Of a stretch of 64,000 nt of DNA, positions 18,119-42,422 are shown one piece after another. The DNA is from Gossypium raimondii (Eukaryota > Streptophyta > Magnoliopsida > Malvales > Malvaceae), in contig NC_068572.1 of assembly GCF_025698545.1 (NCBI RefSeq), positions 3,720,001 to 3,784,000 of the forward strand, in the 5' to 3' direction. A model generated the notes under the pieces. It saw only the letters and a list, made by a program, of their open reading frames with translations, was not told the DNA's origin and did not search any database. The translations under genes were made by a program, and so were the position numbers. Every line of letters begins with the position of its first letter. The first letter of the stretch is position 1.

Positions 18119-19441
18119 CTTTCACTTGCTCTCTCTCCTCCACCTTCCATTGTCCAACTTTCAAGCAAATCGTTGGAATTCTAGGATCTTTTGAAGATTA
18201 ACATGCAACTGTAGAATATTTATGGTGGGTTTATAGGAGCTTAAGTTATCTCTTTTTGGTATGTGTTTCAAGTGTGTTCTATTAACTTTGTGGTTAATTT
18301 TTAACTCTTTGGATTTTAATAATACTTTTATTTGCTGACCAAAAAAAAAGAAAAGAAATTCATGGACAGAATATTGTTATAAAAATGAGCAATATATAAT
18401 TTGGTACTTGTGTTTTTTTAATCTATTATTTGTATTTGATAAATATTTTGATACTTAAAGATAATGGTGTATCAATTCTTGTATTAATATCAAAAATGTG
18501 AGTACTACATGGATCAAAAATGATGAGATCGTTATAATTTAAAAGGACATCAAACTTTAGTACCAATTCTTGTATTAATATCAATTATGATAAAATATAA
18601 CGATTTTGATACTTTCAAAGATCTCGTTCAAATTTAAACATTATTAAAATAAATTGTGCTAACTTTAAGCTCAAATAAAATTTTATTTATGTTATTTAAG
18701 GTATATTAAAATATAATTAAAATCATTTTGATTATATAATATTTTAATTGAAATATAATTAAAATCATTTTGATTATATAATATTAATATAAAACTATAC
18801 ATTTAAATCCAAAATATAAATAAAACATGGCATAACAATTAAAATTTAATATTAATATAAAAACATATTTAATATTTATTTATTTTAAAAATTTTATCTA
18901 CGTGAATTATTCAAAATGTGGAATTTATAATATTTTATTAATTAAAATAATGTATTTACAATTAGACATTAAGTTAGAATTCATTTTAATTAGGTAATAT
19001 TTATAAAATATATACACTTTCTCTTTGAATCAATATATAATATAGATTTTATAATTACAATGATAAAGTTTATTACTATAATCTTATTAACTATTTATCT
19101 TTAAAATATTAAATTTGTTAATAGCTATCAATCATTTATGCAAATTTTTACTAATAATTTTACTAATTAAAATAAACACGTGCCATCTTGATTCTTTTAG
19201 ATTCAATGTTCCTTCCTGTAATTTCTTATCCCCATATAATCCTATCAACTCCCCAAAATTAATAACCTGGTTGCTCTCATTTTTAATTTGTTTGACTCTC
19301 AATTATTTTTATAAAATTTAATTTGCAACTTCAATTCTTTGATAGTGTGTTCTAAATTAATATTGTTTATTTTTATTTGATAATGTCTAATTGCAACTTC
19401 AATTCTTTGATAGTGTGTTCTAATTTTAATATGTTGCAGTA

Positions 19442-20769
19442 ATGGCTCGTCTGCCTTTAATTGCACAACGTGAGAGGCGTAAAAGAATTGGTATTGCATT
19501 GACAATATGGTTGGAAATCTGTAGAATTGCGATTTGGTTCTTATTTAGAATGGGTGCCAGCCTTAGCCTACAGACTTATTGACCAAGGATTAGGTCCTAT
19601 ACTTTAGATTTTTATGCAAAACAGGATTATGTAAAAAGGCTTGTATATGCTAGTGACGAGACTTGTATTGAACAAGTTAGGATGAATAGAACTGCCTTTT
19701 TTAAACTATGTGAGATGTTAGAATCGATAGGGGGATTGAAGTCGTCTAGAAACATGCTTGTTGATGAGCAAGTAGCAATGTTTTTACATATCATCTCCTA
19801 TCACCTGAAAAATCGAGTTATCAAGCATCACTTTAGAAGGTCCGGGGAAACTGTTAGCAGAGCATTTCATAGTGTTTTAAATGCTGTCATACGCTTACAA
19901 GATGTGTTATTTAAAAAGCCGGAGCCAATTACAACCGATTCTTCTGACAGAAGGTGGAAATGGTTTAAGGTATTGGACTGAGTTTTATATATAGCTTGTA
20001 CAACATTTAGTTGACTTGGATTTAAATTAGTATTCTAACTCAAGGTTTTATATCATGTGCTATAGAATTGCTTAGGTGCTCTTGATGGAACCCACATCAA
20101 GATTAGGGTGCCAAAAGTTGATAAACCTAGATATCGAAAGCGAAAAGGTGACATAGCAACAAATATGCTAGGTGTTTGTACACCTGAGATGCAATTTGTT
20201 TATGTTCTTCCTGGTTGGGAAGGTTCAGTTGCCGATGGACGGGTTCTTCGAGATGCCATTAGTAGAAGACATGGACTAATTGTTCCTTATGGTAAAGTGG
20301 ATAGTTAGAGGACTTTGATATTGTTTATTAAGATCAAACTTTTTGTGCTGAATTAATCATTTTAAGTAGCAATTTTATTTTATAGGTTGTTATTAACGAG
20401 TGGCATCAGGGTTATCAGCCAAGTTCTCCGCAAGAGTTTTTTAATATGAAACATGCCTCAGCACGTAATGTTATTGAGAGATGCTTCGGGTTATTAAAAC
20501 TTAGATGGGGAATACTTAGGAGTCTATCGTTCTATCCTGTAAGGGTGCACAATAGAATTATTATTGCATGTTGTTTGCTCCACAATTTTATTCGAACCCA
20601 TATGAGTATTGATCCCATTGAAGCGGAGGTGGGAGAAAGATTACCTAGTAATGTGGTGGATGACGATGAACCGAATATCACAAATATTCATCCATCGGAT
20701 GCTTGGGCTACTTAGAGGATGGAACTAGCCAACCAAATGTTCGATGAATGGCAAGCATCTAGAAATTAG
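19442..20769 (+). pseudogene. HARBI1/ALP1-like transposase, broken
   Basis: Three exons are recognisable: 19442-19969, 20066-20291 and 20386-20769, with GT-AG borders. Exon 1 starts MARLPLIAQRERRKRIGIAL and contains the N-terminal plant HARBI block (LVYASDETCIEQVRMNRTAF) after an in-frame TGA near codon 47. Exon 2 has the first catalytic aspartate in CLGALDGTHIKIRVPK and VCTPEMQFVYVLPGWEGSVA. Exon 3 carries the catalytic glutamate in ARNVIERCFGLLKLRWGIL. Between GGTTGTTATTA and ACGAGTGG about 80 bases normally encoding the second aspartate (the L-V-D-A-G-Y segment) are missing, which also shifts the frame. A TAG replaces a Trp codon near the end (20713-20715). It is a DDE nuclease fossil without activity. 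Confidence 0.88.
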
Positions 20770-20988
20770 TTTGTGAAACTTTTGTATTGATTTTTGTATT
20801 GTACCAAACTTTTTGAATTATAATTTAATTTCTTCTCATTCAGCATGTGTTATAATTTTAAATTTGTTGTGGTTTGGAGCTTTTGATTCATGATATTGAA
20901 CTTAATTATAATTTTATAAAGTGTTCACCTTTTGATTCATGATATTAAAATAGTGATTAATATAATTTTTTTTGTTCTTAAGATAATT

Positions 20989-22037
20989 ATGTCAGCTGTT
21001 CCAGAATCAAGAGCATCTTCTCAATCTTCTCGAGGAACCAAAAGAAAATAGGTTCCAGAAGAAGATGCAGCGTTGGTTTCCTGCATGGTGGACCTGTACA
21101 ATGTTGGAACATTTAATGCTGATACCGGGTTTAAAGTCGGTTATTTAAACGAGTTGGAAAGAATGCTACAAAAGGTTTTACCAAATGCAATGTTGAATGC
21201 GAAACCTAATATTGAATCGAGGATTATGTTACTAAAAAGGGAGTGGTCAATCGTCTATGACATGCTTAATGGCCAAAATAATAGCGGTTTTGGTTGGGAT
21301 GAGCATAGGCAGCTCATTGTTGCTGAAGATGCGGTTTGGGACTCCTATTTAAAGGTAAGATTATTTCAAGTCTTTATTATCTTATTTTTACCAAACTTAT
21401 AACTAATATGATTTCCTCATTTTTTTAGAGTCACAAAGAAGCCGCTCAATTCGGACATCGTACTTTCCTTACTACGACCGACTTACTACCATATCGAAGA
21501 GATCGAGCAACCGGGAAAGATGCTCAAACGATTCTTGATGTTCTTGAAGAAATAAATGCTGAGGGTGTACCTACTATAGGTATGGATGAAGAAAGAAACG
21601 CATTCTATGACTGCGAAGTTGACATCTCTTTGGATGACATGGATGTTTCTGCTGCGGAGCCGCAACGAGATAGAGACCAAGGGGGTTCCTCATCTTCAAA
21701 CAAGAGAAAGAAGAAATCTGATGCTCGTGATATGTATTCTTCATTTGATGAGGCTTCCACTTTATTGGCCGAAAACATCAAGGCCGTTGGCGATCAAATC
21801 AGTAGGAGTATTGCCTCCGAGGTGGTAGTTCAGCAGAAGTCAGAAGAATATCAAAAGATGGAAGAGAAAGCTTCAAATTTATATTCAACCTTATGGGAAA
21901 TTGAAGGTTTAATCGACGATCAGCGGTATGAAGCTTTGAGTAAAATTCCAGATCATCCAACTCAAATGATCGTTTTCTTTAGTTTACCTTCTGTTGCGCG
22001 ATTGGAATGGGTTAGAAGATTTCTTTCTCACCATTAA
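20989..22037 (+). pseudogene. Myb/SANT-like PIF/Harbinger accessory protein, broken
   Basis: Two exons (20989-21354 and 21429-22037) match the partner protein of plant PIF/Harbinger elements. The start is MSAVPESRASSQSSRGTKRK. The next codon, normally the first Trp of the Myb/SANT-like domain, is TAG (21049-21051). After it the frame is open to the end. It includes VGYLNELERMLQKVLPNAML, LLKREWSIVYDMLNGQNNSG and VAEDAVWDSYLK, a basic SSSNKRKKKSDARD stretch (probable nuclear signal), and a C-terminal helical region ending VARLEWVRRFLSHH. In this family the protein binds the element ends and assists nuclear entry of the transposase. One nonsense change is the only obvious damage, so this gene is fresher than the transposase. 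Confidence 0.85.
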
Positions 22038-22179
22038 AAATCAATGTTCAAACTTTTTGATGTTGTAAAACTATATAACATATGGATTATGATGTAGAAT
22101 TTCATTTTCATCTAAGCTTTTCTTAATATAAGTTAATTATGTTTATGCAGACTATAATTCTCAAGTTATATTTTGATTT

Positions 22180-22705
22180 TAGTAAATTCATATAAGAACA
22201 TTTTATTATTAAGAATTTTATGAAATTATATATCATTATTAAATTATATTTAATATTAATTATTTTAAATTGTATAAATTTATATAAGAAATTTTATTAT
22301 CAAGAACTTTATGAAATTATATATTATTATTAAATTATATGTAATAATAATTATTTTAAATTATACAAATTCATATAAGAAAATTTATTAGTTATAAATA
22401 TTTTAAAATTTATTAAATCATATATTTTAATTAAAATATATTTAATAATAATTATGTTAATTTATATTTTATAGTATCATATATTATGATTTGAGTAAAT
22501 TCATATAAGAATATTAATTATTAAGAATTTTATTAAATTATATATTTTAATTAAAATATATTTAATAATAATTATGTTAAATTATCTTTTATAGTATCAT
22601 ATATTATGATTTGAGTAAATTCATATAAGAATATTAATTATTAAAAATTTATTAAATTATATATTTTAATTATAATATATTTAATAATAATTATGTTTAA
22701 ATATG
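22180..22705. repeat. AT-rich tandem array in the PIF/Harbinger right region
   Basis: Units of roughly 60-120 bases recur, beginning near AGTAAATTCATATAAGAA. The best pair (22496-22615 and 22616-22700) is nearly identical. Earlier units are more diverged. It separates the Myb/SANT gene from the right terminus. Confidence 0.75.
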
Positions 22706-22826
22706 ATCTAAATTATTTATTGTTGATATTAATAATCTTATTAAAATTTAAATAACAATAACAATAATCATTTACCCAAACAAATTTATGCTAAGGGTAT
22801 TCTAGTCATTTTAGTTTTTTTCCATT

Positions 22827-22986
22827 ATGCTATTACACCTCTATTCTATTCAACCAAACACAAGATTACTATTACGCCTCTATTCCATTACATTCAACCA
22901 AACAATTGATTTGCTATTACGCCTCTATTCCATTACACCTCTATTCCATTACGCCTCTATTCCAATACAGCGAACCAAACGTGCTG
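22827..22986. repeat. Subterminal terminus-like repeats at the PIF/Harbinger right end
   Basis: ATTCAACCAAACA appears twice and AACCAAACG once in 160 bases. The motif ATTACGCCTCTATTCCATTA is repeated four to five times between them. Each repeat resembles the true right end, so the terminus is a stack of terminus-like units. Confidence 0.8.
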
Positions 22987-23341: not shown

Positions 23342-24735
23342 ATGGCGAAAGCACAAAGACCTCATATAGCAATCCTACCGAGTCCAGGGATGGGTCACCT
23401 CATTCCACTCGTTGAGTTCGCCAAACGTCTCGTTCACCAGCACACCTTCGTCATCCCCACCGACGGTTCCCCTTCTAAAGCTCTAAAATCAACTCTCGAT
23501 TCCCTTCCAACATTCATTGATTCCGTTTTCCTCCCGCCCGTCGACTTGAGTGATCTCCCTCCGGATTCGAAGATTGAAACGAGGATCTCTTTATTGGTGT
23601 CTCGCTCCCTTTCTTCCCTCCACGACGCTTTCGTGTCGATGGTGGCCGGCACAATGCTCGTTGGATTGGTCGTTGATATGTTCGGGACCGACGCGTTCGA
23701 TGTTGCTAATGAATTCAACATCCCATCGTATATATATTTCCCGTCGACGGCCATGATGTTGTTCTTTTTCCTTTACCTACAAGAACTCGATCGAACAGTT
23801 TCATGCGAGTACAAGGACATGGTCGAACCGGTGAGATTACCCAGGTGAATACCGATTCACGGAAATGAATTACTAGACCCGACACAAGACCGGAAAAACG
23901 ATGCGTATAAATGGCTTCTCCATCATGCAAACCGGTTTAGATCAGTTAAAGGGATACTGGTAAACGGTTTCCCGGACTTAGAAAGTGGGCCAATAAAGGC
24001 CTTGCAAGCGAAACAATCAGGTAAGCCACCGGTTTACCCCGTTGGACCACTCATTAACGTCGATTCGAGTGACAAACCCGATCCATCAGGGAGCATCAAG
24101 TGGCTCGATATTCAATCGGTCGGTTCGGTTTTATTTGTCTCCTTCGGCAGCGGTGATACCCTTTCACGTAACCAAGTAAACGAGTTAGCAATGGGATTAG
24201 AAGTGAGTGAGCAACGTTTTTTATGGGTCATTAGGACCCCTAACGATACCATTGCTAATGCCACATATTTCAATGTTGATACCCAAAAGGACGATGACCC
24301 ATTTATGTTTTTGCCCAAAGGGTTCGTAGAAAGAACCAAAGGGTGTGGTCTAATGGTGGGATCATGGGCAGCACAGGCTCGAGTGTTGAACCATGGGTCC
24401 ACTGATGGGTTCTTGACCCATTGTGGGTGGAATTCAGTTGAAAGTGTGGTTAATGGGATACCTTTAATTGCATGGGCACTTTATGCTGAACAAAAGATGA
24501 ATGCCTTGATGTTAAGTGAGGATGCTAAGGTTTCTTTGAGGCCTAAACCTAATCAAAGTGGGTTGATATGTAGGGACGGGATTGCAAAAGTTGTAAAATG
24601 TTTGATGGGAAGTGAAGAAGGGAAATGTGTTCGAAATAGGATGCTGGAGTTGAAAGAAGCAGCTAAAAGAGTACTTCTACCATAGCACTCTCTGAGGTGG
24701 CTGATAGCATTAACATGCATTGTTATCTACAAATT
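23342..24735 (+). pseudogene. UGT72-type UDP-glycosyltransferase, broken
   Basis: An intronless family-1 glycosyltransferase starts MAKAQRPHIAILPSPGMGHL at 23342. The catalytic-histidine motif PSPGMGHLIPLVEFAKRL, GLVVDMFGTDAFDVANEF and YPVGPLINVDSS place it in the UGT72 group, which glucosylates phenolics and monolignols. The PSPG box at 24365-24493 keeps HCGWNS but reads WAAQ for WAPQ, has lost one residue after HCGWNS, and has WALYAEQ for WPLYAEQ. A TGA at 23846-23848 (codon 169) stops the protein. Near 24683 a small deletion removes part of the C-terminal segment and shifts frame, and the family-like ALSEVADS continues in another frame. With about 220 residues after codon 220 still open, the decay is fairly recent. 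Expression as an intact enzyme is not expected. Confidence 0.88.
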
Positions 24736-25269
24736 AGAAACCTTCTCTCTTTTTTTCAAATATTCTTATTTTCCTTTTACCTTTCCATGTTTGATTACTA
24801 TTTTCATGTACATGATCTAAGGTTCAGGTTTTAAGTTATGGTCACAAATGTATCTTTTATAAAGTTTACAACCGTGTTTTTTTTTCTAATTATATCAACA
24901 ATTTTAATCATAATCAATCAATACTCACTTGACAGCCATGTAGCTAAAAAATAACATTGTAATGAACTTGAATTTAATAAAAATAAATTTAAGAGTGTTT
25001 ACAAATGAACCTGAATTTTCATTTCCTTGAATATCTCGCCTTTTTTTAATCCGAACAACATAAATGCATTGTACAACCCATCAGAACCCATCAAGCACAT
25101 CAAAATTGAAATACATCATGAAGGATTGAAGCTCAACAATCATCCTACCCTCTAATTCTAATTGACTGCCTAGGTTCCAAGACATAGTAATGCTAAATTA
25201 AGACTGTAGTCTATTCAAAAGTTAATTTTACAAATGGCACATACAAACAGTCGATTAAAGTTCAAGATC
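24736..25269. other. Spacer between the two host pseudogenes
   Basis: This 530-base AT-rich stretch lies between converging remnants (UGT72 on +, CENH3 on -) and presumably held their 3' UTRs. No other feature is seen. Confidence 0.5.
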
Positions 25270-27089
25270 TTACCACGGTTGCCCCATCCCACCAAGTTGC
25301 CGTGCCAACTGAATATCCTTCTTCACTGAGGGCAACAAAAGAAAATGAAATTAACTTTGCTCCTTTTGAAATGAAACTGGAATGAAGTCATTGTTAAACA
25401 ATGAACCAATAGAAAATACTTCACTCTTTGAAACCGAGAAATCATGTTTCTCAATGAGCATGAAACAATACGGTGACACTAACAGGGATAAATACTTAGA
25501 TCACACAAATGACAATCACTAGAGAGTTCTCTTATGAAGGTTTCCTATCTATTAACTTCCCCGTGCTATAAATGCAGAATAAACTTTACACATCGTAAGC
25601 AATCCATAAACTTCTCCGTGTTCCCATTATTTTTGAGAGATTCAACATTAGAACAAACTCATAGGCCAAGAGGCAAGCTTTCAATACGCCCCACAGCATC
25701 AGTCAGCTTGCATGATCTCCCATCAAATACACAATATGGAAAGTGTCGGATTTGCATAATGTTAGAATATTATTACGGCTACCTTTAGATTGCTACAACT
25801 ATTAAACACTTAGAAATACCCTGAAATGTAGAACAAATGTCCCCGATATAAACTAGTTCAAACAAAAACAACAGTTTCTCCATCCCTTAACTTAGTGTAA
25901 CACGCTTTGCATGAATTGCAGAGAGCGTTGCATCTCCAAACAATTGAATCAAATAATCCTCTGCTGCCTACAAAACCATCCAAAGTTATATGCTTTTCGA
26001 AGTAGAAAGTAGCAAAAGTATTGACATCACAAATTGCATTGTTATTTCTTATTGTGAAATAAAATATAACTGAACAAACTACAGTTCTTCACAATCATAC
26101 AGTTAATTAGCAAGTGAAAATTTGCATACTCATATCATACTCAAATTCAAGTATTTTTGGACACTTATAAGTGCATAATGAACATATTATAACAGTGAAT
26201 ACATATGCAAGTTAATGTTGGAAATCTAACCTATGGCAGCATGACAATATGGAGACTGGGAAGCATTATATTTTCCAGATCAACCATATATCTGGAATCA
26301 CATGCAAAAAAATTAGCATGCACATTCTAGTCTATGTGTCTATTTATTTTTGATGGCTTGTCATCTTCTGCATAGTAGAAGGTAGGGTAAGTTACTGAAC
26401 CTCTTGAATTGCTACTAAAGCTTCAGCTTGTCAACGACTTATTCCTGGTGCAAGTTGGTAGCTAATAGCTCTTACCTATAAAAAATCATATAAAAAACGA
26501 TTACCTTCTCATTAACCTCATAAGTTATAATAATGGTTAGCAGAAAGATAAAGCATAATGTAATCTTGAGGGGATCCCCCCCCCCCCACCTTGGACAATT
26601 CACAATGGCGATGTTAATGTCAGCTAATTGTGAAATTTCAGAGTCAAAGCTAGAGATTTAAAACACCTTTTTTTTCAATTCAACTGTAACTCATGTACTG
26701 AGAATTAATAGATTTTATTTCAATCCCAATTATTTTAAAATTGTAACATGGTAGTAAATATACCAGATTGCATTCAATCAGTAATGCAGACAATAAACTA
26801 GTTTAGAGAGAGATAGAGCTGACTTCTCTGATGAAGCTGGCAGCAGGGATGATTCAATTAGTAGTCTTCTGGTGTTTGCGAATCTCTTGAAGAGTCCTAG
26901 TTCCCAGTTTAAAACGATGAGGCTTCTTTAGTGTTCCTTGAGCTTCAACAAAATTAAAAAAGGCAAAAAAAAAATATCAATCTTTGATGCAGCATGCATT
27001 TGGGTACCTACAGGAGGGATATCATGCCTGAGAAAGAACTCACATGATGTGGCCTGTCCTCCGGTTCTTCTTGCTCCTCCACCACGTGC
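25270..27089 (-). pseudogene. CENH3: CENH3 (centromeric histone H3) pseudogene with introns
   Basis: Five exon remnants are in the right order on the minus strand. 27044-27089 gives ARGGGARRTGGQATS. 26824 to about 26942 gives KKPHRFKLGTRTLQEIRKHQ and IIPAASFIRE. 26401-26475 gives VRAISYQLAPGISR and QAEALVAIQE. 25892-25967 gives AAEDYLIQLFGDATLSAIHA and KRVTL. 25270-25325 gives MKKDIQLARQLGGMGQPW. The GQPW ending and the longer loop 1 are CENH3 traits absent from canonical H3. CENH3 replaces H3 in centromeric nucleosomes. Two TGA codons (26854-26856 in helix 1, and 26431-26433 at the RW position) and the missing first exon show it is dead. Some acceptors read AAG rather than CAG. Retained introns mean DNA-level duplication, not a retrocopy. 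Confidence 0.85.
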
Positions 27090-27926
27090 CTTCAGAAAAA
27101 AAAAAAGGAAAAGAAGGTAATTTTGACCTCAGATTTAAATTCCAGTTATGGCAAAGAAGGAAAGAGGGGAAATCTAAGGGAAAGCAAAGATAACAAAGAA
27201 CAAAAGGTAGCAAAAAAACTGTTCTTATTTCTTACCCAAACCTCGAATCTATATTTTTACTCAAACTCTCTCACTTTTTGGGTCGAGTCGGGTGACCCGA
27301 ACCATGAATAGGTCTAATTGATACTATTTTAAAATCCATATATAGCATACTCAAAAATTTAAAACTCCCATGTCGCAAATACATATATTAAGACTTGAAT
27401 TTGAGTGATCAAAGGCTCGAGTCAGTGTCTTAACTAACAATGACAAGATCTTATTTGCTAATATTATTTTATTTTTAAAGGAATTAAAATACAATTTTAC
27501 CACTAAAATTTATTATTGATTCGATGATTTGAAAACAAAATTTAACAAGAAAGCATTACAATTATATTCATTAACAATAACAACCAATTGTATTAGATGC
27601 GAATACAATATCATTGTACATTTTCATCGACTCGTCAATCTATTTCTTATAACATTCAAGTAAGGTTCATTCTGTAACATGTTACACATATAACCCAAGC
27701 GACTAATAATTTTGTTCAAAAATTTAATACAACATACATCTTAAAATATCATATACAAATATATTTTTACCTTCTATTAATAGACAATTTTCACGACATC
27801 TGTATCCATGCTCATTTTTACAAAAGCAAGCAATAATAATCTATTTTGTTGATATTTTTCGAGTCACACTGCAGAGTACTCTATACAGATATACTAGAGT
27901 CGTTGAACCTCAATTGAATGTATAAG
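27090..27926. other. Spacer upstream of the CENH3 pseudogene
   Basis: The first CENH3 exon, starting with the usual MARTKH, would be expected here but was not found. The stretch is AT-rich with no recognised gene. ATAAG at 27922-27926 is the left target duplication of the copia element. Confidence 0.5.
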
Positions 27927-28491
27927 TATTGGAAATCATCCATATTTATGGAAAGTCAAAGATATGGGTATCAAATAAAGTCAAAGATATGGGTATCAAA
28001 TATTGAAAAGTCAAAGATATGGGTATCGAGATATTGGCATAAGAAATCTGAGATATTTGCAATATTTGGTCCCTAATTGTAAAGTGACTTTGCAAGTTGA
28101 TCCCTGAACCTCAACTATAAATAGGCATAACCATCTCCCATTCTGTATCTCATATTTGCCATTCTCTACTTAAGACATTGTTCTCTCTCTCTCTCTTTGT
28201 AAATTCTCACTTGTATTTTGGAGTGAAATATATTTGGTAGTGCCCGAGGACGTAGGCAAAATTTACTGAACCTCGTTAAATTCTTGTGTTCTTTATTGTA
28301 TTATTCTACATGAATTGTGAGTGTGATTGTAGTGATTTATTGTGCTATTAAATTACGATTGAGGAATATTCTGGCTAGGAAAGACTTGGTACTTAAGCGA
28401 TCCTTGTGATCCACCTCTCTTTCCTGGGAATTGAACTTAGTGTGATTTTTTAGTACAATAATTTTACTCTTTTACACGCTTTCGCACAACA
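27927..28491 (+). repeat. Left LTR of the copia element
   Basis: The LTR begins TATTGGAAATC and ends CGCACAACA. It contains three copies of an AAAGTCAAAGATATGGGTAT motif, a TATAAATAG promoter motif near 28119, and a CT-rich tract. The first two bases are TA where TG is usual. Confidence 0.92.
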
Positions 28492-31400
28492 ATTGGTATC
28501 AGAGCTAGATTCGTACTTGGGGAATACAATCGTTCACGGCACTGTTCACGTACAGTAGTTGGGATTGAGGAGAAAAATGGAAAATTTGAAGTAGAGAAAT
28601 TTGATGGTACTAATAATTTTGGTATGTGGCAATGTGAGATCCTGGATGTCCTATGTCAGCAAAAGCTGGACATAGCCCTTGAAGAAAAACCTGACAAGAT
28701 GGATGACAAGGAGTGGGCTAAGATCAATAGACAGGAATGTGGAACAATTCGCCTATGTTTGGCCAAAGAGCAGAAGTACTCTGTTATGAGGGAGACATCA
28801 GCGAAGAAGTTGTGGGATACACTGGAAGAAAAGTTTCTAACAAAAAGTCTTGAAAATAGGCTTTATATGAAAAAAAAACTTTATCGATTCACGTATGCAC
28901 CCGGTATGTCGATGAATGACCATGTGAACTCATTCAATAAAATTTTAGCAGACTTACTAAATTTGGATGAGAAATTTGAAGATGAAGACAAGGCATTACT
29001 GTTGTTGAATTCTCTTCCTGATGAATATGATCATCTTACCACCACATTGCTTCATGGGAATGATACGATCACATTTGATGCAGTCTGTAGTGCGTTGTAT
29101 AGATCTGAGACTCGAAAGAAAGATAAAAAAGATCACAGAGATACAACTACAGAAGTCTTAACAGTAAGAGGTCGTTCGCACAGCAACAAATCTGGTAGAA
29201 GGAGTAAGTCCAAAGGGAGACCTGCCAAAGATGAATGTGCTTTTTGTCGTGAGAAAGGGCATTGGAAAAAGAATTGTCCTAAGTTACAAAAGGGCAAGGC
29301 TATTTCTGATGCATGTGTAGCGGAGCATGATGAGGAGTCAGACTTTAGCTTGGTTGGCATGGCAATGGCATGTCATACAGATGAGTGGATTTTGGATTCG
29401 GGATGTACTTATCATATGTGTCCTAATAAGGACTGGTTTTCTAGTCTTAAAGAACTAGAAGGCGGAGTTGTTTTTATGGGAAATGACAGTGCTTGTAAGA
29501 CAATGGGAGTAGGTACATTCCAATTGAAGAATCACGACGGCTCAATTCAAGTTTTGACAGATGTTCGCTACATACCTAGCTTGAAGAAAAATATCATCTC
29601 ATTAGGGGTCCTAGAATCTAAAAGGCTCACAATCACTTTGAGAGATGGATTACTAAAGGTAGTAGCTGGGGTATTGACGGTGATGAAAGACACAAGAAGG
29701 AATAATCTGTACTATTTAAATGGAAGTACAGTTATTGGATCAACATCAACAGCTTCTGTGAAAGATGCAGATTCAGAGGCTACCAAGTTATGGCATATAC
29801 GATTGGGACATGCTGGTGAAAAAACTTTGTAGAGTTTGGCGAAACAAGGCTTGTTGAAAGGTGCAAATTCTTACAAATTGGAATTCTGTGAACATTGTGT
29901 TCTGGGCAAGCAGACGAGGATAAAATTTGGTTCAGCAATTCACAATACAAAAGGAATTCTGGACTACGTTCACAGTGATGTATGGGGACCTACTAAAGTG
30001 GCTTCTTTGGGAGGCATGCACTATTTTGTTACTTTTGTTGATGATTATTCAAGAAAAGTATAGGTGTATCAAATGAAAAGGAACAATGAAGTTTTGGATG
30101 CATTTCTGAAATGGAAGAAGATGGTGGAGACTCAGACAGGTTGAAAGGTCAAATGACTTCAATCAAACAATGGTACTGAGTACAAGAATGATCCATTTGG
30201 ATAAGTATGTCAAGATGAGGGCATTGTGCGACACTTCACTGTTCAAGATACACCACAACAAAATGGGGTGGCAGAACGTATGAATCAGACTATACTGAAG
30301 AAAGTTCGATGTATGTTGTCTAATGCTGAATTGGGCAAGGAATTTTGGGCTGAGGCAGTCACATGGAGAGGTGGGCTGGTAAACCTGCTACTGATTATAA
30401 TTCTTTACATGTTTTTGGTTCCACTACATATTATCATATAAAAGAATCTAAGTTAGACCCAATAGCAAAGTAAGCATTATTCATGGGTATAACCGGTGAA
30501 GTAAAAGGATACCGTCTCTGGTGTCCTGATACAAGGATGATTGTTTTCAGTAGAGATGTGACTTTTGATGAATCAACCATGATGAAGAACAAGGATTCAC
30601 AAAAGGATAACAAAACCAGTGGCACTTTGCAGCAGGTGGAGCTTGAAAAGGTTAATGATGATCCAACTAATATTGAAGGAACAAATGATGAAGAAGTTTC
30701 GACTCAAGAACTTCTACAGCAACATGATTCAATTGCATATAGAAGGCCAAGAAGAGAGATTCGTATGTCTGCTCACTTTGATGATATGGTGACCTATGCA
30801 CTTCCAATTGCAGATGATGATGTTCCTTCTACTTACACAGAAACAAGAAGTAACCCTGATGGTGTAAAGTGAAAGCAATATATGAATGAAGAAATGAAGT
30901 CTTTTCATAAAAATAGGACTTGGGAGTTGATGACACTACCCAAAAGAAAGAAGGCAATTAGATGCAAATGGGTATATGCAAAGAAGGAAGGATTTCCTGG
31001 TAAAAATGAAGTTCGATACAAGGCTAGATTGGTAGCAAAGGGTTACGCTCAGAAAGAAGGAATAGACTACAATGAAGTGTTTTCTCCAGTTGTGAAGCAT
31101 TCGTCTATTCGGATTTTGCTAGCCTTGGTTGCGCAATATGATCTTGAACTAGTTCAGCTCGATGTGAAGACCGCATTTTTACACGGTGATTTGGAAGAGG
31201 AAATCTATATGAATCAGCCAGATGGATTCAAGGTTGCTGATAAAGAAAATTGGGTTTGCAAATTGACAAAGTCACTTTATGGATTGAAACAATCTTCGAG
31301 GCAGTGGTACAAGCGATTTGATCAGTTCATGAAAGGGCAAAAGTACACAAGAAGTAAATTTAATCATTGCGTGTATTTTCAGAAGCTACAAGAAGGATTT

Positions 31401-32472
31401 TTCGTATACTTTCTCTTATGTGTTGATGATATGTTGATAGCATCTAAGAGTAAAGTTGAAATTGAGAGATTGAAGACTCAACCTTGAGTTTGAGATGAAA
31501 GATCTAGGTGAAGCTAAGAAGATTCTTGGCATGGAAATATGTAGGGATAGAGCTCATGGCAGAGTTAGTTTGTCTTAGAAGCAATATTTGAAGAAGGTAC
31601 TACAGAAGTTTGGCATGAACGAGCAGACAAAAGTTGTAAGTACCCTGTTGGCTTCTCATTTCAAACTTTTTGCACAACTATCTCCTTCGACGAATACGGA
31701 ACAAGAATACATGTTACAAGTTCCGTATTCTAATGCAGTAGGTAGCTTGATGTATGTAATGGTGTGTACAAGGCCCGACATTTCACAGGCAGTTAGTATA
31801 GTGAGCAGGTACATGCATAATCCTGGAAAAGGACATTGGCAAGCTGTGAAAAGGATTCTACTGTATATTCGGAATACCATGGATATTGGATTACTGTTCA
31901 AGCAGGATACTACACTTGGTAAAGGTGTTATTGAGTACGTTGATTCTGATTATGCCGATGATTTAGACAAACGAAGATCAACCACTGGTTATGTGTTTAC
32001 ACTTGCTGGAGGACCAATAAGTTGGAAGTCTACACTGCAGTCTACAGTTGCGTTGTCAACCACAAAAGCTGAATACATGGTTGTAACAGAGGCTGTAACA
32101 AAGGCTGTAAAGGAAACTATTTGGTTACAAGGTATGGTTAAAACCTTGGGATTGGTTCAGGAGCATATTAACGTGTATTGTGATAGTCAAAGTGCTATTC
32201 ATTTAGCAAAGAATCAAGTCTATCATGCACGTACAAAGCATTCGACGTACGTTGATGAGGGGAAAATTCACCTTCAGAAGATTAAGACTGCAGATAATCC
32301 CGCAGATATGATGACCAAGGTGGTAACAACAATCAAGTTCGAACATTGTTCGAACTTGATCAATATTCTGCATGTTTAACAGTTGAAGAAGGCACTATCA
32401 AGTGTTGTTGACAAAGGCAGAGAGAATTGTGTGAAGATAAGATTATTCGAATCAAATCTTCAAGGTGGAGAT

Positions 32473-33039
32473 TATTGGAAATCATCCATATTTATGGAAA
32501 GTCAAAGATATGGGTATCAAATAAAGTCAAAGATATGGGTATCAAATATTGGAAAGTCAAAGATATGGGTATTGAGATATTGGCATAAGAAATCTGAGAT
32601 ATTTGCAATATTTGGTCCCTAATTGTAAAGTGACTTTGCAAGTTGATCCCTGAACCTCAACTATAAATAGGCATAACCATCTCTCATTCTGTACCTCATA
32701 TTTGCCATTCTTTACTTAAGGCATTGTTCTCTCTCTCTCTCTCTTTTTAAATTCTCACTTGTATTTTGGAGTGAAATATAATTGGTAGTGCCCGAGGACG
32801 TAGGCAAAATTTGCTGAACCTCGTTAAATTCTTGTGTTATTTATTGTATTATTCTGCATGAATTGTGAGTGTGATTGTAGTGATTTATTGTGCTATTAAA
32901 TTACGATTGAGGAATATTCTGGCTAGGAAAGACTTGGTACTTAAGCTATCCTTGTGATTCACCTCTCTTTCCTGGGAATTGAACTTAGTGTGATTTTTTA
33001 GTACAATAATTTTACTCTTTTACACACTTCCGCACAACA
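32473..33039 (+). repeat. Right LTR of the copia element
   Basis: It is nearly identical to the left LTR, with the same ends and internal motif repeats. The CT tract is two bases longer. The right target duplication follows directly. Confidence 0.92.
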
Positions 33040-33044
33040 ATAAG

Positions 33045-34560
33045 TTATACCAAAATATATCGGTAGAAGAAGATACATGATAAGGACTTTGTTGCTAGAT
33101 TTGTACGGTAACAACATTCTTTCTACTATCCAAAGCATACAAAGCTTTGACATATCAATTCATTTTATCCTCAGTTTCATGTGTTGGATGGATTGGTTTT
33201 AGAAGTATCTTCAACCACGTACATTAATTATAATCATTTCTCCATGTGAAAAATGGAATGCATGATACTTCTATATTTCCAAAAAGGTGGAAAACAACTT
33301 CAGTATTTTATTAAACTTTGTCGTCATAGATGCCACATATAACCCAACACTCTTCAAGCGGTTTACGATACATCCATTAAGCTTCGAAAAATTTAAATTA
33401 TATCTAGCATGTACAACTTGATCTTGCTTCTATTTTAAATAACACAAAAATATTTAATTTCACAGAATCTTAGATTTATTTTTGCAAAAAGTTACAAAAT
33501 AAAAAATATATATTGAGTTGCAATTTTTTACCATATTGACGACATGTGTTCTTCAACCTTCAAGTGATCAGTTTTCTCTTAAAGAATAAAATAAATTCAA
33601 ATTGCAGTAGAGTTGACAGTATTATTTTTTTCAGTTGCAATTGCATTTCGAACAAAAGTTTTCATTTACAAAATCATAACAACTTTAAAAATATTAATTT
33701 TATTAAACAATAAATGTTAAACCTGTTTCAATTTGGTGTATTTGATTCTTTCTAATAGTATATGGACTAAGTTGATCCATTTAATAATATAGAGACTAAT
33801 TTGATAGAAATATAAAATGATAGAAATATTCTCATAGTAATGATTCTTATTAAGCGAAATGAAACTCAATTGACGGACGTCACTAACTCAATTAACCTTT
33901 TAAATGGCGGTACACATAAATAATCAATGTTTACTTAAAACTTGATATTTATATTTGATTGATATCATGTTTTAATTAATATAGAGATTTATTTTAGGAT
34001 TAATTTATCGTTTGGTACTTCAATTTGATATTTTTTAATGTAGTACCCGTATTTCGGTCTAATCAATATTTGTATTTGGCAAAAGTAATAAACTTTGAAG
34101 TCCAAAAGTATTGTTTAATTTGAATTTTTGATTGATTTGATGAAAATTAATTGTTTATATTATTAATTATTAATTTCATGATTTTTGTTAATAGAATAAA
34201 TTTATTGTTAATTGTTAATTTATTTAATTGTGTTTAATTTATTAAATACAAATCTCATTATATATTCTTATTATATATAAGTATAATACATTTTGACACG
34301 CTTGAATCCACATACTCCTATGTTAATAACAATACGAGCTACCCTCAATCCACAATACCAATAAAAAAAAAAGCACAATATAGATATCATGATATTAAAC
34401 CAGGATATCAAATGATAATGATGAATTAAGATTTTATTTTTTATTATATTTTTCATCACAATTAAATTTCCAAATTTTAAAATGCAAAAACCCTCAATTG
34501 CACAAATTTCATCAAAGCTCAAACAACTATCCTGTCTCTGGTTCTGTAGCAATTTCCATA
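33045..34560. other. Intergenic, no gene recognised
   Basis: AT-rich DNA between the copia element and the leader of the nucleotidyltransferase gene. Phrases such as TTTGGTACTTCAATTTGATA near 34010 resemble arms of decayed foldback elements. No coding support. Confidence 0.5.
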
Positions 34561-35198
34561 ATATTACCAAATCTTTGCCTTTTGCATTAGCTATTTCGTA
34601 ACGCTTCCACCTTTGTTTTTTTCTTCAATTCGAGGGCACTTCCCAATTTCCAGGATTGCTGTAGATTCTATTTAGGGTTTTTATTTTGATAATATTATCG
34701 CCCTATTATTTCCCATTTCTTTCACCCTCTAAGGTTTCCTTCTCCCTTTTTCTTCTTTTCAATTCCCAATTTTTTTTTTAATTTTAGGGCTTCTTATCCA
34801 GGTTTTGTGTATTTTCTCAGTCGTTTGGGAAAAGAAAGGGAAAAGCTTACCTTTTTTTTGATCAATTTACTTTGGGAATTTATTGGAAATAGCCCCTTCA
34901 TTTTGCCAGTTTTTACTGCACTCGGCGTTTTAATTACTTCATAAACGTTATTAGCATCTAGGATTCTTACCTGATTAATTAAAAAAAAGAAGCCAAAGTA
35001 AAACTAATTTCGAAGTTTGATTTTCTGAAGAAATAATCATTGATTCACCAGAAAATCGTACATATTGAAAAACTACCCATTTTCTGCCCATTTTTTAAAA
35101 TTGAAAATTGATTATTTGTTTTTGGTTGCATTGTGGCGATTGAGAGGGTTTTAGAAAGTTGTTGGGGGGGGGGGGGAGGAAAAGTGGTTTAAGATTGC
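34561..35198 (+). promoter_or_regulatory. Promoter and leader region of the nucleotidyltransferase gene
   Basis: The region is pyrimidine-rich (many TTTCTTC and CCCTTTTTCTT stretches) and typical of plant 5' leaders. A GATTTTCTG/TTTCTGCCC area precedes the start. No TATA box stands out, so the transcription start is not assigned. Confidence 0.4.
35164..35176 (+). repeat. G13 tract in the leader of the nucleotidyltransferase gene
   Basis: Thirteen consecutive G residues lie 22 bases before the start codon at 35199, inside the presumed 5' leader. They are likely length-variable and could hinder scanning or form a G-rich structure, but no function is shown. Confidence 0.8.
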
Positions 35199-38100
35199 AT
35201 GGGAGAGCATGAAGGGTGGACGGCGCAGCAGGCACCGAGCGGGCTATTGCCGAACGGTTTGTTACCCAATGAAGCCACCTCTATGATTAGGATGCTTGAC
35301 TCGGAACGATGGACGAAGGCTGAGGAAAGAACTGCTGAACTCATTGCCTGCATACAGCCCAATGCACCCTCGGAAGGTCGCCGTAATGCTGTTGCTGACT
35401 ATGTTCAGCGCCTCATCTCCAAATGCTTCCCTTGTCAGGTTCTATAAAATGCAACTCCATGAGAATCCCTTTTTCTTTTAGAAATGCCATTATATGAAAT
35501 TTGACATTTAGAAAAGTTTCTATGTTGTGGAAATGATTGAATGGATACGTTTGAGTAGAGAGATGAATGAATTATAGAAAAGGTTCATTCATATCAAGGA
35601 TACTTTGAGTAGAGAGATGAATGAATTATATGCAGTTTTAGCTTTTCTGGGATAGGGTGTTGGGTCCATCAATTGGTTTTAATTTGGAGTTGCTTGCTTT
35701 CTGTTGGCAGGTCTTTACTTTTGGGTCTGTGCCCCTCAAGACATATTTGCCAGATGGGGATATCGACTTAACAGCTTTCAGCAAGGATCAAAATTTGAAA
35801 GATTCTTGGGCTCATCAGGTTCGTGATATGCTGCAAAATGAAGAAAAACACGAGAATGCTGAATTCCGAGTGAAAGAAGTTCAATACATTCAGGCTGAGG
35901 TAAGGTTTTAATGAGATGCCTTTTGTTCGTAATGTCTATGGGATCTTGGATTTTGGTTTTCTCCTTAGGATCTCTTGTTTATTTCTGTCAAGGTTTTACT
36001 ATCTTTTTCTTTCCCAGATTTCTTCAATTAATTTGCACATTTGTTGACCCTTGCTACTCTGCTGGGATCTCCTTATTTCAGTGTTATTCTCCCTACACAT
36101 TTTGAGCAATTTCTTGCATAGAACTAGTTGTAGAATTCTTGAACACATTTGCTCAATGTTGTCATCTTAAATTCTTAATACCTCAATTCATTTGGATATT
36201 ATCTTTTCCTTCTTATGCACTTTCAGGTGAAGATAATAAAGTGTCTCGTAGAAAATATTGTGGTAGACATTTCATTTAATCAGCTTGGTGGATTATGTAC
36301 GCTTTGTTTCCTTGAAGAGGTTAGGTGATGCAAAACCTGCCACTGCATGTCTGCAGGTTTATTTTTGGAATGATAGACCATTTAGGAATTTCTGTAAGCT
36401 TTAACCTAACTTAATGCCCATGTGTGTAGGTTGATCTTTTGATAAATCAGAACCATTTGTTCAAACGTAGTATCATATTGATAAAGGCATGGTGTTATTA
36501 TGAGAGCCGTATACTGGGTGCTCATCATGGACTTATCTCAACCTACGCCCTGGAAACCTTAGTTCTTTACATATTCCATGTTTTCAATAATTCCTTTTCT
36601 GGACCACTCGAGGTGCATATTTTTTTTTACCTTATATATATTTTATGTTTTTTTGCATTTGTCTGCATGTCTGTCTGATATCCTTTTCATGTGTAGGTCC
36701 TATATCGTTTTCTTGAGTTCTTTAGCAAGTTTGATTGGGAAAATTTTTGTGTTAGCCTCCGGGGTCCTGTCCCAATTCGTTCGCTGCCAGACATAACAGG
36801 TACTGCAATTTCTGGGACATCTAATGCTAAGCTTTGGCCAAGAATCTTCTACTTACAGAATTTTGGCCTGTTTTGTAGTCTTAATTATATTTTTTTAAAT
36901 GCTATTTTGCAGCCGAACCTCCTCGAAGAGATGGTGGAGACTTGTTACTTAGCAAATATTTTCTTGATACTTGTAGTTCAAGATATGCTGTTTGCCAGGA
37001 AAACCAGGGCCAACCATTTGTTTCTAAATATTTCAATGTAATTGATCCTTTGCGTTTAAATAACAATCTTGGACGTAGTGTTAGTAAAGGTAGTTACATC
37101 TACAACTTTGTACTGATTATTTGTTGTAACTTTTTTTATTTGTTTCTCTTGATTTTTGTGACTTTTGTCGTCTATCATTTGGCAATCTCTGTTTCCAACA
37201 CTATGTTGCATGCTTTATTGGTTATAAGTTTCTATACCTGGCATAAATATTTGATAAATAAATGTCCTTTTAACTGTCTTAATTCTGTATGGTCCTATAG
37301 AATCCATTTGAAGGTAGATAACTATGAACTTCTAAGAGAGTCACGTGATAGAGAACTAATGAAAATAGTGAACTTAAGTTGGTGAAGAGCAAGGCGAGTA
37401 GACTTTAATGGAGGGAAGGAAGTTGGTAGCAGACTATGTTACATGAACTCAGGAGTGAGTGTTGTATATGAGCATGTGTTTGACACAAATACACTCTTTT
37501 TTCAAAAAGATTTTCATATATTCGGAGTTTGTACCCTATACTCATGTCTGAATGTGTGTTAGACATAAGTGTCAGGTGCGGTATTTTAGGAAAAAATGAA
37601 GAGTGCACGTAACATGGCTAGCAAACAGTAAGAATCTTAATTTTGTTTACTTCTACGTAGTTCTGGCGCGTACTGGAAACTCATATGATTAAGCATATCA
37701 CGAATCAAAGGTGGATACCATAAATTCTACATGTACAACTATGTAAATCTTTTTGTTAGTTTTAATGCTTTCAAGACAGCTGAGTTGTCAATTTTGTGTG
37801 CGACTGATAGGTTTTGATGTGCATGATGTTAATTTTCTATTCTCCAGGTAATTTCTTTAGGATACGCAGTGCGTTTTCATTTGGAGCTAAAAAGTTGGCA
37901 AGACTACTTGATTGTCCCAAAGAGGACCTGTATTATGAAGTAAATCAATTCTTTATGAATACATGGGAAAGGCATGGCTGTGGCCAACGTCCTGATGCAC
38001 CAAGGAATGATTTGTGGCCTTTGAGATTTTCAAATTCAGACCACACTCGTGGATCTAAGAATGTCAGAAACAATTCAAGCAGCAAGGGAAATCATATTTC

Positions 38101-41100
38101 CTCTGGGCATGAAACTGAAGCTGAAGAAGTTCAAGTATCTTGTGGTGTTCCCTCACATAATCATCCATCGGAAAGCACAATTAGTGATGTATCTACTGTT
38201 TTTCATAGCCAAAGGAGCTATGGTAGCATGAGCAACTCAAAGACCTCCGATCAGGTTAGATGGAATTGTAATTCCAATCAGAATGTTCATAATGATACTG
38301 GCCAGAGGAATTCTAAAGCGGAGAATTTGGTGACTGATGTTCAAGGAAGATATATTTTTGCAAGGACATGTTCGAGTCCTGAGCTTACTGAAACTTATGA
38401 GGAAGCTACTTCTCGAGGAAGGCGGAACAGAATGCAAGAGAGTGGGGAAAAAACACAGATTGGTTCTATGCGATCAGATACTAACAGGAGGAATAATATG
38501 GGATCTGTTATGTTGGCAAGCTATAACATTAAATCATGTGATGATCCTTCATCTACAAGGCAAACGTCAACCCGTCAAAGCATTGCTGCTGCTTCTGATC
38601 CAAACAGTCTTCTTAATGGTAACCAAGATGATTTAGGCTTGGGAACCATGGCTCAGGACTTCTCTTCGATTCCAGGTTCACAAGGAATGCATCAAGAAGA
38701 GCAGGATTTAGTGAACATGATCGCATCTTCTACAACTCATGGCTTTAATGGTCAGGTTCCTGTTCCGCTAAATTTAGCTGCAGGTCACTTACCTTTTTCT
38801 CTCCAGTCTCTATCAACTGGCTACAATCAGAGAAATTTGGGAGGGATTGTTCCCGCTAATATTCAAATGTTTCCCCATGGATTGGTTTCTCCTCCTTTGG
38901 CCCATTATATTTCTGGCATTGAATTACCCTCAAATGCAGAGAATTCCGTTGAGCCCAGTAGTGGTAATTTTGGTTCTTCAGAAATGAACCCAGGGGAAGT
39001 GGAACATGAGTTACATCATGAACACGACAGAGGCTCTGTTGGTGGTTTTGATCTTGATAATGAAAATTTTGAAATCCGTCCATCAGATGATAACCAACTT
39101 TCAACTTCAGCTGGCTATGAGGCTGGCAGCTCTGGACAGAAGTTTACAAAAGAAACTCGAGGGTCAAATAGGGAACATCATCTAGATGTTTGCCAATTTC
39201 AAGATAATAGAGCTAGTGATGTTTATTTTGATGAAAGAACTGCAAGTTCTATATCCATGCTTGCTTCGCATACTAGTTCACTCAGAAGTAAAACCTTAAC
39301 AGAAAGTTCTTGGGAAGGGTCTTCAGCAAGGGCCTCTAAGTCAGCTAGGGAGAAGCGAGGTAGGAAAACTGCTGCTTCTGTGCTTCATTTTGCCGCATGT
39401 GGGAAAGGTAAGAGTGTATCTGAACGTTCCTCTCAGGCAGATGACGATGGCAGAGATTGGAATCCACCATCAATAGGGGGCACTGAAATGGTGGAAAGAA
39501 CTATTGGACCTCAGCCGGTTGGTTCTTTTCCTGTTCCAAAGCATCAAATGCCTGGTGAGGAAGCTCAAACAAGTGGACCAGATTCATCGATACCTATTGC
39601 TCCATTCCTCTTAGGTCCAGGTTCAGGCCAAAGAACTATGGATAATTCTGGAGTTCCTCCATTGGCCTTCATGATAACAGGGCCACCAGTTCCATTTTTG
39701 TTCTGTCCTGTGTACAACATTCCAGCAGAAACGGGAACTCCAGAAGCATCAGCAGGCCATTTTAGTTGGGATGAAGGTTTGGATAACAATGATTCTGGTA
39801 AAACGTTTGAATCATCTGAGGGACTTGATCAATCTGAGGTGCTAAGTACTTCTATGAGAAAGGTTTCATCTCTTGACCCATCAGAGCATAAGTCTGACAT
39901 TCTTAACAGTGACATTGCTAGCCATTGGCAGAACTTGCTGTATGGACGGTTTTGCCAAAATTCACGATATCCTCCGAATTCGCTTTATCCTTCACCCGTC
40001 GTGGTGCCACCCATCTATTTACAAGGTCATTTCCCTTGGGATGGTCCTGGGAGACCTCTTTCTTACGACATGAATCTCTTTTCTCAACTTATGAATTATG
40101 GGCCTCATGTTCTTCCTGTTGCTCCCCTCCAATCTGTTTCAAACAGACCTGCCACATTCCAAAGATATGTTGATGAAATGCCAAGATATCACAGTGGTAC
40201 CGGGACATACCTGCCAAACCCTGTAAGTGACTTAAAACAATCTTTTATGAGCCTTTATTACTTTCAATATCTGCCTTTGGACTTGGCAAAGTTTTCAGGA
40301 GTAAGGTTGGTTACACAGTCCTGTTTTTCCCATTCCCCATTAATTGGAGATGCACAGTTATAGGGGACAATAATTTGAAATGCAATTATATGTTGGTCAT
40401 AAGACAATGCTACATTTGTCTGTTTCATCAGTTTTTGAAGTGATCTTAATATTGTTTAGCTCCCATTTTCGCATCAGTCTACCTTGAGAACTATAGCCTT
40501 CAATAATTTTGTATATGAACTTTTCTCCACTCTAGAAAGTTTCAATGAGAGAACGCCCTTCTGCAAATACAAGGAGAGGAAAATATAATCCTGATAGAAA
40601 TGACCACCATGGCGATAAAGAAGGGAACTTGAATGCCAATACAAAGTCACGAGCTGCTGGGCACAACCATGGTTGCAACCAAAATGATAAATCAAGGTTC
40701 ACATTTGACCAATTTGCTGGTGAGAGCAGAGCTGAGAGGCCCTGGGGTTCACATAGACATGATTCATTTACTTCATACCAGTCTTGGAACAGAACAGTCC
40801 GCTCAAACTCTTCACAAAGTAGCCCTGCCAGTATGCCATATGGCATGTACCCACTTGCAGCCATGAACCCCAATGGGGTGTCATCTAATGGACCTACCAT
40901 TCCATCTGTGGTCATGCTGTATCCATACGATCATAATTCCCCTACTGAACAGCTTGAATTTGGCTCTCTTGGACCATTTAGTTTCTCAGGCATGAATGAA
41001 GTATCACAGCCAAGTGATGGAAGTAGCTCCACTGGAGTATTTGATGATCAAAGGTTTTATGGTACCTCTGCTCAACGGTCATTGCCAGACCAGCCTTCTT

Positions 41101-41289
41101 CACCCACACCCACCACCAAAGGTATTTTGTCTTGTTTTTCTGAGATATAGTTTCTTTAGTAGACATGGCCAAAGCAGTCAGCTTGAAAACCACTCGGACT
41201 GCCTGTCTTGAATATTCTGGTTGTTTTTTGATGCTCTCATTTATTTCTTAACAGGGGACTTTGATTTTATTGCCAGATCCATGTCCTAG
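35199..41289 (+). CDS. Nucleotidyltransferase-fold (PAP/OAS1-like) plant protein
   Basis: Nine exons give about 1326 residues: 35199-35438, 35711-35899, 36227-36319, 36430-36612, 36697-36799, 36913-37089, 37848-40222, 40536-41121 and 41255-41289. The N-terminal third carries a DNA-polymerase-beta-type nucleotidyltransferase core. It has FGSVPLKTYLPDGDIDL with G85-S86 and carboxylates D97 and D99, and a third carboxylate D157 in VVDISFNQLGG. A PAP/OAS1 substrate-binding region follows (INQNHLFKRSIILIKAWCYY, HHGLISTYALETLVLYIF). The catalytic triad is complete, so it may be active, but the substrate is unknown. The rest, mostly one 2.4-kb exon, is Ser/Asn/Gly-rich and looks disordered. It resembles Arabidopsis At3g61690. 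The extreme C-terminus is uncertain: the family-like QLKDEEFPNL occurs just past the TAG in another frame. Confidence 0.88.
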
Positions 41290-42422
41290 AAGAATCACAA
41301 TTGAAAGATGAGGAATTCCCAAATCTTTGCTTTTCCATATGATGGAAGAAATGACGGTAGGAGTACCGATAATGAGAAAACCACCACGTTACCAGGTTTT
41401 TGTTCTCATCTCACTCCTAAAACCAAGAAGTGGATTTTCTGATTCAATGACTGCTAGTGAATTTCTCACAAGATGGTGTCATCCATGCTTCTTGGCTTTG
41501 TGCTTGTATGTACACTATGACCGACTGAAAATCATTTTTGAAAGTGCTCGGTTTTTTCGAGGTTAATAACAAAGTAATGGTGAAAAAGGAATGCAGGATT
41601 CAGTAACAGAGGTTAGTGTTTAAATTTAGGGTTCTACACATTGTAACTGAACTAGATTCTCTTCAGATTTACAACTGAGTTCTATACATCATTTTATAAA
41701 CCTCTAGTGATTAGGATGTTATTTCCCACATTGTAATAGGTTTTTCTTTTCTTTTTTCTTTTTTTTCTTTCTTAGTTTCAGTCTAACTAGCTCTCACTTT
41801 TGTTGACTTCCTTGTTGAAACTTGAAAGTTACCAGTGTACTAATAACAATTCCATGTTAAAAGAACAGAGTTGATAACAGAAAAAAATTAGAGGTGGTCA
41901 TGTTTGTTGCATGGAATGTTGTGTTCTTGCCTTGTAATAATATCTTTGTTCAAATTTATTTTATTTTTTATAGGGTTTTTCATTCATAGCAGATATATTT
42001 GCTTAATTTCCCCCTAAACCCCTCATGCAATTAAACAAAAATTCAGAAAAGAAAAAGAGAACAATAACTGGAAAGGAACAATTTTGCAACCTCTATGCTA
42101 CCGTCTTCCCTATGTTATTATTTGTTTTAAGGTCTAATTATGCTTTCGGTCCTTGTATTTTTTTGTACATCTGAAATTTAGTTTCTCTACTTTTAATCTT
42201 AAGAATTTAATTTCTTTATTCTTTTGATTTAATGATTAAAGTGTAATTGATAATATTGTCAAAGGAATTCGGTTAAATTGGTGCTCCCGTGGTAAATATT
42301 ACACCCGTGAAAAGGCCAAATAAATAATACTAAATTTAGGGTTGTAAGGTTTTTAATTCTAATTAAGGAAAAGTTGAGTGAAAGCGTGTTTTTCTTCTTA
42401 AATGTCTTTCCCACAACTTTAA
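41290..42422. other. 3' flank of the nucleotidyltransferase gene
   Basis: This includes the presumed 3' UTR. A short open stretch around 41327-41566 has no recognised domain. A frame just after the annotated stop (41285-41345) carries QLKDEEFPNL and may be the true C-terminus if splicing differs. Otherwise it is AT-rich non-coding DNA. Confidence 0.5.

Follow-up and report, generated by a model that had tools for sequence, protein, structure and literature searches.

Duplicated genes for the centromeric histone H3 (CENH3) that later decayed are known from legumes, where the accessible part of one report describes a soybean duplicate pseudogenized after whole-genome duplication and a tandem pseudogene in cowpea (PMC7738545). 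For Gossypium, the accessible text of PMC4308911 gives one CenH3 gene for each diploid cotton studied, with 7 exons and 6 introns, a length of 2,565 to 2,673 bp in diploids and splice variants at 99 and 137-142; the word pseudogene is absent from that text. Gene capture by PIF-type elements has been described, as far as the available portion of PMC8903248 goes, as Pack-PIF in maize, among the Pack-TYPE transposons. Among the open-access papers listed for CENH3 in these contexts, titles and abstract openings yielded no report of the cotton relic described here or of transposon-borne CENH3 in cotton, and the accessible parts of PMC12068715, PMC12392945 and PMC13317346 contain nothing on the relic locus.

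Results

We analyzed a window of 64,000 nucleotides (C8:3720001-3784000) of a Gossypium raimondii assembly of 750.8 Mb in 281 contigs, whose 13 large contigs (C1-C13) sum to about 739.5 Mb. On the minus strand of this window, from 27089 to 25270, exons 3 to 7 of a CENH3 gene follow one another in order, with introns between them and no frameshift (Table 1). An earlier note, made from the letters of the window, had described five such remnants, and direct reading and alignment to the intact gene agree on them. All five share their boundaries with the intact gene, and their splice sites are retained (acceptors AG in 5/5, donors GT in 4/4), and in the exon-6 donor the loss of 4 bp turned GTAAGT into GTTAAG. 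Provided that this shifted donor is used, the reading frame is intact throughout apart from two TGA codons, both of which the earlier note had named and both of which fall inside the histone fold. Its "loss of the first exon" went part of the way: since the intact gene has seven exons and five remnants survive, exon 2 is gone as well, and with them the start codon and the N-terminal tail, no CENH3 homology being found upstream of window 27203. Similarly, the LGGMGQPW of the proposed "MKKD...LGGMGQPW" end is present, while MKKD is interrupted, exons 6 and 7 each supplying part of its M codon. Judged from its sequence, the locus is a dead relic and not a gene, as it lacks its first two exons along with the region upstream of them; faulty assembly might in principle explain the stop codons, and would scarcely explain the absent exons.

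Table 1. Positions of the features discussed (window positions unless a contig is given)
Feature	Position	Strand	Remarks
Relic CENH3 exon 3	27044..27089	-	46 nt vs 37 nt in intact gene; both splice sites (AG, GT) retained
Relic CENH3 exon 4	26824..26942	-	119 nt, same length as intact gene
First TGA, in relic exon 4	26854..26856	-	Leu codon in intact gene
Relic CENH3 exon 5	26401..26475	-	75 nt, same length as intact gene
Second TGA, in relic exon 5	26431..26433	-	Trp codon in intact gene
Relic CENH3 exon 6	25892..25967	-	76 nt if shifted donor used (76 in intact gene)
Relic CENH3 exon 7	25270..25325	-	56 nt as in intact gene; LGGMGQPW end followed by TAA
Full extent of homology to intact CENH3 (C7:31561351-31563348), with introns	25255..27203	-	By alignment; homology ends within intron 2
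Stretch without collinear homology to C7:31563349-31575519	27204..34551	.	One short repeat match set aside
Ty1-copia LTR element	27927..33039	+	LTRs 97.5% identical (distance 0.026); ATAAG as 5-bp target duplication
Collinear neighbor gene	34552..41674	+	Paralogues on C7, C11, C12
Mitochondrial carrier exon	7237..7596	-	C11 and C12 paralogues close to neighbor-gene paralogues
PIF/Harbinger-type element, relative of E044	19426..22937	+	Blocks of 80-93%; Myb_DNA-bind_3; right end motif near 22962
Example dispersed CENH3 loci (L044, L045, L053, L054)	C4:41722859-41724414, C7:45650827-45652366, C9:29412901-29413789, C11:54348358-54349246

The sole complete CENH3 found in the genome lies on the minus strand of C7 (C7:31564021-31561366), and our model of it has seven exons, 462 coding bases and 153 residues, with start and stop codons spanning 2,656 bp. 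It resembles the Gossypium CenH3 of the accessible text of PMC4308911 in having seven exons, in total length and in two exon boundaries, at coding positions 99 and 136, and it differs in coding length, which is 30 bp short of the published 492 bp. From the interior of intron 2 to the stop, introns included, the relic aligns with the C7 gene over 2,076 columns, of which 1,397 are identical (67%) and 205 gapped; identity reaches 88% over exons 4 to 7 and 57 to 71% in introns 3 to 6. A processed retrocopy was rejected because introns are present and can be aligned with those of C7. In a protein search of the genome, for which one residue was substituted at each stop of the relic query, the exons showed 68 to 90% identity to C7 CENH3 versus 52 to 54% to eleven full-length H3 matches, and canonical H3 was rejected as the relic's identity on these values. 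Relative to the H3 of locus L010, the relic has a loop 1 longer by one residue and LGGMGQPW in place of the H3 end. A longer loop 1 and an LGGxGxPW end are diagnostic of CENH3. A search of the PDB does not discriminate CENH3 from H3; the best 60 of its 178 matches include chains of H3 as well as H3/CENP-A chimeras. The best single match of the relic protein is a canonical H3 gene and not a CENH3 (C10:13133463-13133744, locus L009), in a match that extends beyond that gene's own stop. With the 3′ part of the relic as query, the whole-genome DNA search returned four matches, none beyond C7 (E values of 2.7e-63, 5.7e-26 and 2.0e-6) and the relic itself. The earlier note's reading of the locus as a dead, DNA-level duplicate of CENH3 is supported.

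Homology to C7 stops at window 27203 and resumes at 34552. The corresponding 12.2 kb of C7 hold CENH3 exons 1 and 2, a PORR-domain gene and a PPR-DYW gene, and neither of the two genes has a match within the window; the only close copy of PORR in the genome is that on C7, the next best of its 17 matches reaching 44%. The gene at which homology resumes also flanks CENH3 in C7, past PORR and PPR-DYW, in the same relative orientation and with 76 to 79% DNA identity; in its C7 copy, one exon weakly matches a nucleotidyltransferase domain, below the Pfam cut-off. AT-rich matches between C7 and the window were excluded from the synteny evidence, and we discounted the similarity between C7:31567204-31567408 and window 33581-33776, because this C7 stretch resembles window 53042-53355 as well, and matches both places on either strand. 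The Ty1-copia element in the gap is, by the divergence of its LTRs, young; since it also has a target duplication of its own, we do not claim it as the maker of the gap, and as a demonstrated cause of the truncation it was rejected on the same two grounds. It may have landed in an older, preexisting gap. On its other side the relic adjoins a UDP-glycosyltransferase gene (window 23345-24685) that also looks dead, with an in-frame stop at 23846-23848 and an end that seems shortened.

The neighbor gene has seven matches in the genome, four long ones on C7, C12, C8 and C11, at 70 to 75% to C7, and three short, weak ones. A mitochondrial carrier in the window has its best five of 16 matches on C8, C11, C12, C12 and C8; the top three sit 30 to 171 kb from the neighbor gene on C8, C11 and C12, and none of the 16 lies near C7:31.5 Mb. 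Synonymous divergence was estimated with our own script for the Nei-Gojobori method. For the CENH3 pair it is 0.26 (exons 4 to 7; 16 changes at 72.7 sites in 105 codons, which are few synonymous changes for dating), in agreement with the 0.285 of the neighbor-gene pair from C7 and the window (751 codons). The six neighbor-gene pairs among C7, C8, C12 and C11 gave 0.308, 0.424, 0.286, 0.487, 0.313 and 0.364 (452 shared codons). All six lie within the 0.2 to 0.5 of the paralogue Ks peaks that the accessible text of PMC12343791 reports for the clade, along with a decaploidy in which Gossypium raimondii shares. Among the 73 matches of the protein search, no CENH3 was found less than 0.5 Mb from the neighbor gene on either C11 or C12.

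The relic carries signs of past constraint. Ka/Ks between it and C7 CENH3 is 0.32 over exons 4 to 7. Both lineages together show 19 replacement changes and two stops, versus 31 to 38 changes expected on one lineage that had been neutral since duplication (Poisson P from 0.03 down to 0.002, according to which Ks is taken). As this is fewer than the neutral expectation, selection probably acted on the relic through much of its existence; with counts so small, this step is the weakest of our quantitative ones. Using H3 as an outgroup assigns 9 of the 18 amino-acid differences to the relic and 3 to C7 and leaves 6 unplaced, one stop being among the relic's 9 and the other among the 6. On these small counts, the relic seems to have changed faster than the C7 copy and slower than a gene dead from the outset.

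Pieces of the intact CENH3 are also dispersed through the genome. A 1,101-base query from its intron 4 to intron 6 found 40 matches, namely, the parent, the relic and 38 others at 35 places, which are 83 to 95% identical with introns included; a 422-base query from intron 2 to intron 4 found 26, again the parent and the relic, with 24 others at 17 places. The union of both DNA searches comprises at least 46 loci, spread over all but one of the 13 large contigs, and 11 of these loci are supported solely by pieces of less than 80 bases each; the number of loci would be 64 if weaker, protein-only matches were counted, and we do not rely on it. The pieces derive from exons 3 to 5 and their introns, are up to 97% identical to intact CENH3 and have been amplified and reshuffled. 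In 24 of 28 loci examined they start at the same base or its neighbor, 27 to 28 bases before exon 5. All six dispersed copies compared have a Ser-to-Asn substitution in exon 5 that is absent from parent and relic, and their distance to the parent (K2P) is 0.029 to 0.080, versus 0.36 for the relic. Given the shared substitution and the small distances, the dispersed copies probably belong to a single capture lineage of far more recent date than the relic.

Four dispersed copies (E044, E045, E049 and E050) were extended in search of element ends. The most complete is E044 (C4:41.72 Mb), with about 7.7 kb between imperfect inverted ends and, as parsed, TAA on either side. A 3-bp TTA/TAA target duplication is typical of PIF/Harbinger elements. 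E044 encodes a DDE_Tnp_4 transposase spread over separate open stretches (38.6 bits, Pfam cut-off 24.8) and a Myb_DNA-bind_3 (Myb/SANT) protein (32.3 bits, cut-off 23.6). By these predicted products and its ends, E044 is a PIF/Harbinger-type element carrying CENH3 pieces. The inverted ends are common to the three copies traced to both ends (E044, E049 and E050), one of which has matching target copies while E049 and E050 are without them; for E045 the right end was not found. Carriage by elements of this type would thus apply to at least some of the loci. Beyond the CENH3-carrying copy on C7, at about C7:45659390-45659950 (locus L074), lie coding letters for another protein, which we take to be a reversibly glycosylated polypeptide. 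The window itself has a relative of E044 at 2.3 kb from the relic, and no CENH3 piece was found inside it.

These copies bear on guide design. Across its seven exons, intact CENH3 has 43 NGG sites, and we compared these, at up to 3 mismatches, with 28 dispersed loci and with the relic. In exons 3 to 5, 19 of 21 sites match at least one dispersed locus (14/16 in exons 3 and 4, 5/5 in exon 5), one exon-5 site matching up to 23 of the 28; in exons 1, 2, 6 and 7, 0 of 22 sites match any of them. The relic is matched by 0/5 sites in exon 3, 2/11 in exon 4, 2/5 in exon 5, 1/1 in exon 6 and 8/9 in exon 7. The hazard to CENH3 primers and guides of which the earlier note had warned is therefore real for exon 7, and the bigger hazard, on these counts, is that from the dispersed pieces of intact CENH3 elsewhere in the genome. 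Such pieces could mislead work on cotton CENH3, and the counts show cytogeneticists and breeders which of its parts to avoid.

Discussion

The relic's anatomy, its collinearity with one neighbor gene, the four paralogues of that gene, the matching divergence and the finding of one intact gene all point the same way: the window very probably holds a relic homoeologue of CENH3, left by paleopolyploidy of the cotton lineage, most likely the decaploidy. The earlier note had offered a homoeologue lost after polyploidy as a possibility, and four paralogous blocks, at C7:31.5 Mb, C8:3.7 Mb, C11:55.1 Mb and C12:36.8 Mb, with Ks 0.26 to 0.49, make this its most likely origin. The polyploidy was most likely an old one and not the recent allotetraploidy, the assembly having 13 large contigs as in diploid cotton. 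In this scenario, the ancestral CENH3 locus would have been multiplied together with its neighbors; the C7 copy stayed the working gene, whereas the C8 copy would have remained constrained in its coding sequence through much of the period after duplication. It would then have lost its first two exons and the sequence upstream of them along with two neighboring genes, assuming that both were once present, and have taken two nonsense mutations, the order of deletion and stops being our presumption. Today it presumably makes no protein. The copies expected on C11 and C12 left no trace in protein and DNA searches of the genome. The ancestral gene order is assumed here, the comparison covering this one genome.

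Some points count against the homoeologue: the tie between C8 and the blocks on C11 and C12 comes from only two gene families, the carrier was not found near C7:31.5 Mb, and as many as five blocks might remain after a decaploidy where four were found. A later or separate, smaller C7-C8 segmental duplication, independent of polyploidy and followed by decay, would account for the fact that the C7 and C8 stretches compared have just one further gene in common, and for a C7/C8 neighbor Ks (0.31) that is the second lowest of the six pairs. That value nevertheless falls inside the range of the other pairs (0.29 to 0.49), and the carrier is likewise common to C8, C11 and C12, so that we consider such a duplication unlikely. 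The PIF/Harbinger relative 2.3 kb away might suggest that the relic is itself another transposon-borne piece like those at the 46 other loci, to which we give next to no credence: the relic has exons 6 and 7, found elsewhere on C7 only in the DNA search, lies at a K2P of 0.36 from C7 versus 0.03 to 0.08, is without the substitution common to the six dispersed copies compared and adjoins a gene collinear with C7.

Nor does continued usefulness of the locus, as a truncated or alternatively spliced CENH3 or as an antisense or regulatory RNA, fit well. The frame retained outside the two stops and the AG acceptors (5/5) and GT donors (4/4) speak for it; the lack of exons 1 and 2 and of a homologous upstream region and the two TGAs inside the histone fold make it very improbable indeed. 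The dispersed pieces, observed along with the carrier of the best-read copies, invite a separate conjecture, in which a PIF/Harbinger-type family has spread pieces of CENH3 exons 3 to 5 to dozens of places, and these pieces yield small RNAs that act on CENH3 and so couple transposon activity to centromere dosage. These small RNAs and their effect are pure speculation on our part, and we regard the coupling as decidedly improbable.

If the relic is a homoeologue, it would be a datable fossil of the return of CENH3 to one copy after polyploidy. From the constraint estimated above, loss here seems to have been slow, both copies staying under constraint for a long time.

With Pack-PIF of maize, as the available portion of PMC8903248 presents it, the cotton elements have in common that host gene pieces lie inside PIF/Harbinger-type ends and have been amplified and reshuffled. 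They differ in what has been captured, which is CENH3 with its introns, and in that E044 also encodes transposase stretches; under the rule given in that portion, E044 would for this reason be autonomous or autonomous-derived and not Pack-TYPE.

For the relic itself, the closest parallel is soybean, where, according to the accessible text of PMC7738545, a duplicated CENH3 was later lost at a collinear place after whole-genome duplication. Since a CENH3 pseudogenized after duplication is known there, the cotton relic would be a further case of a known phenomenon, unlike the legume cases in that it comes from another plant family and has lost exons 1 and 2 and, if they were once present, two neighboring genes.
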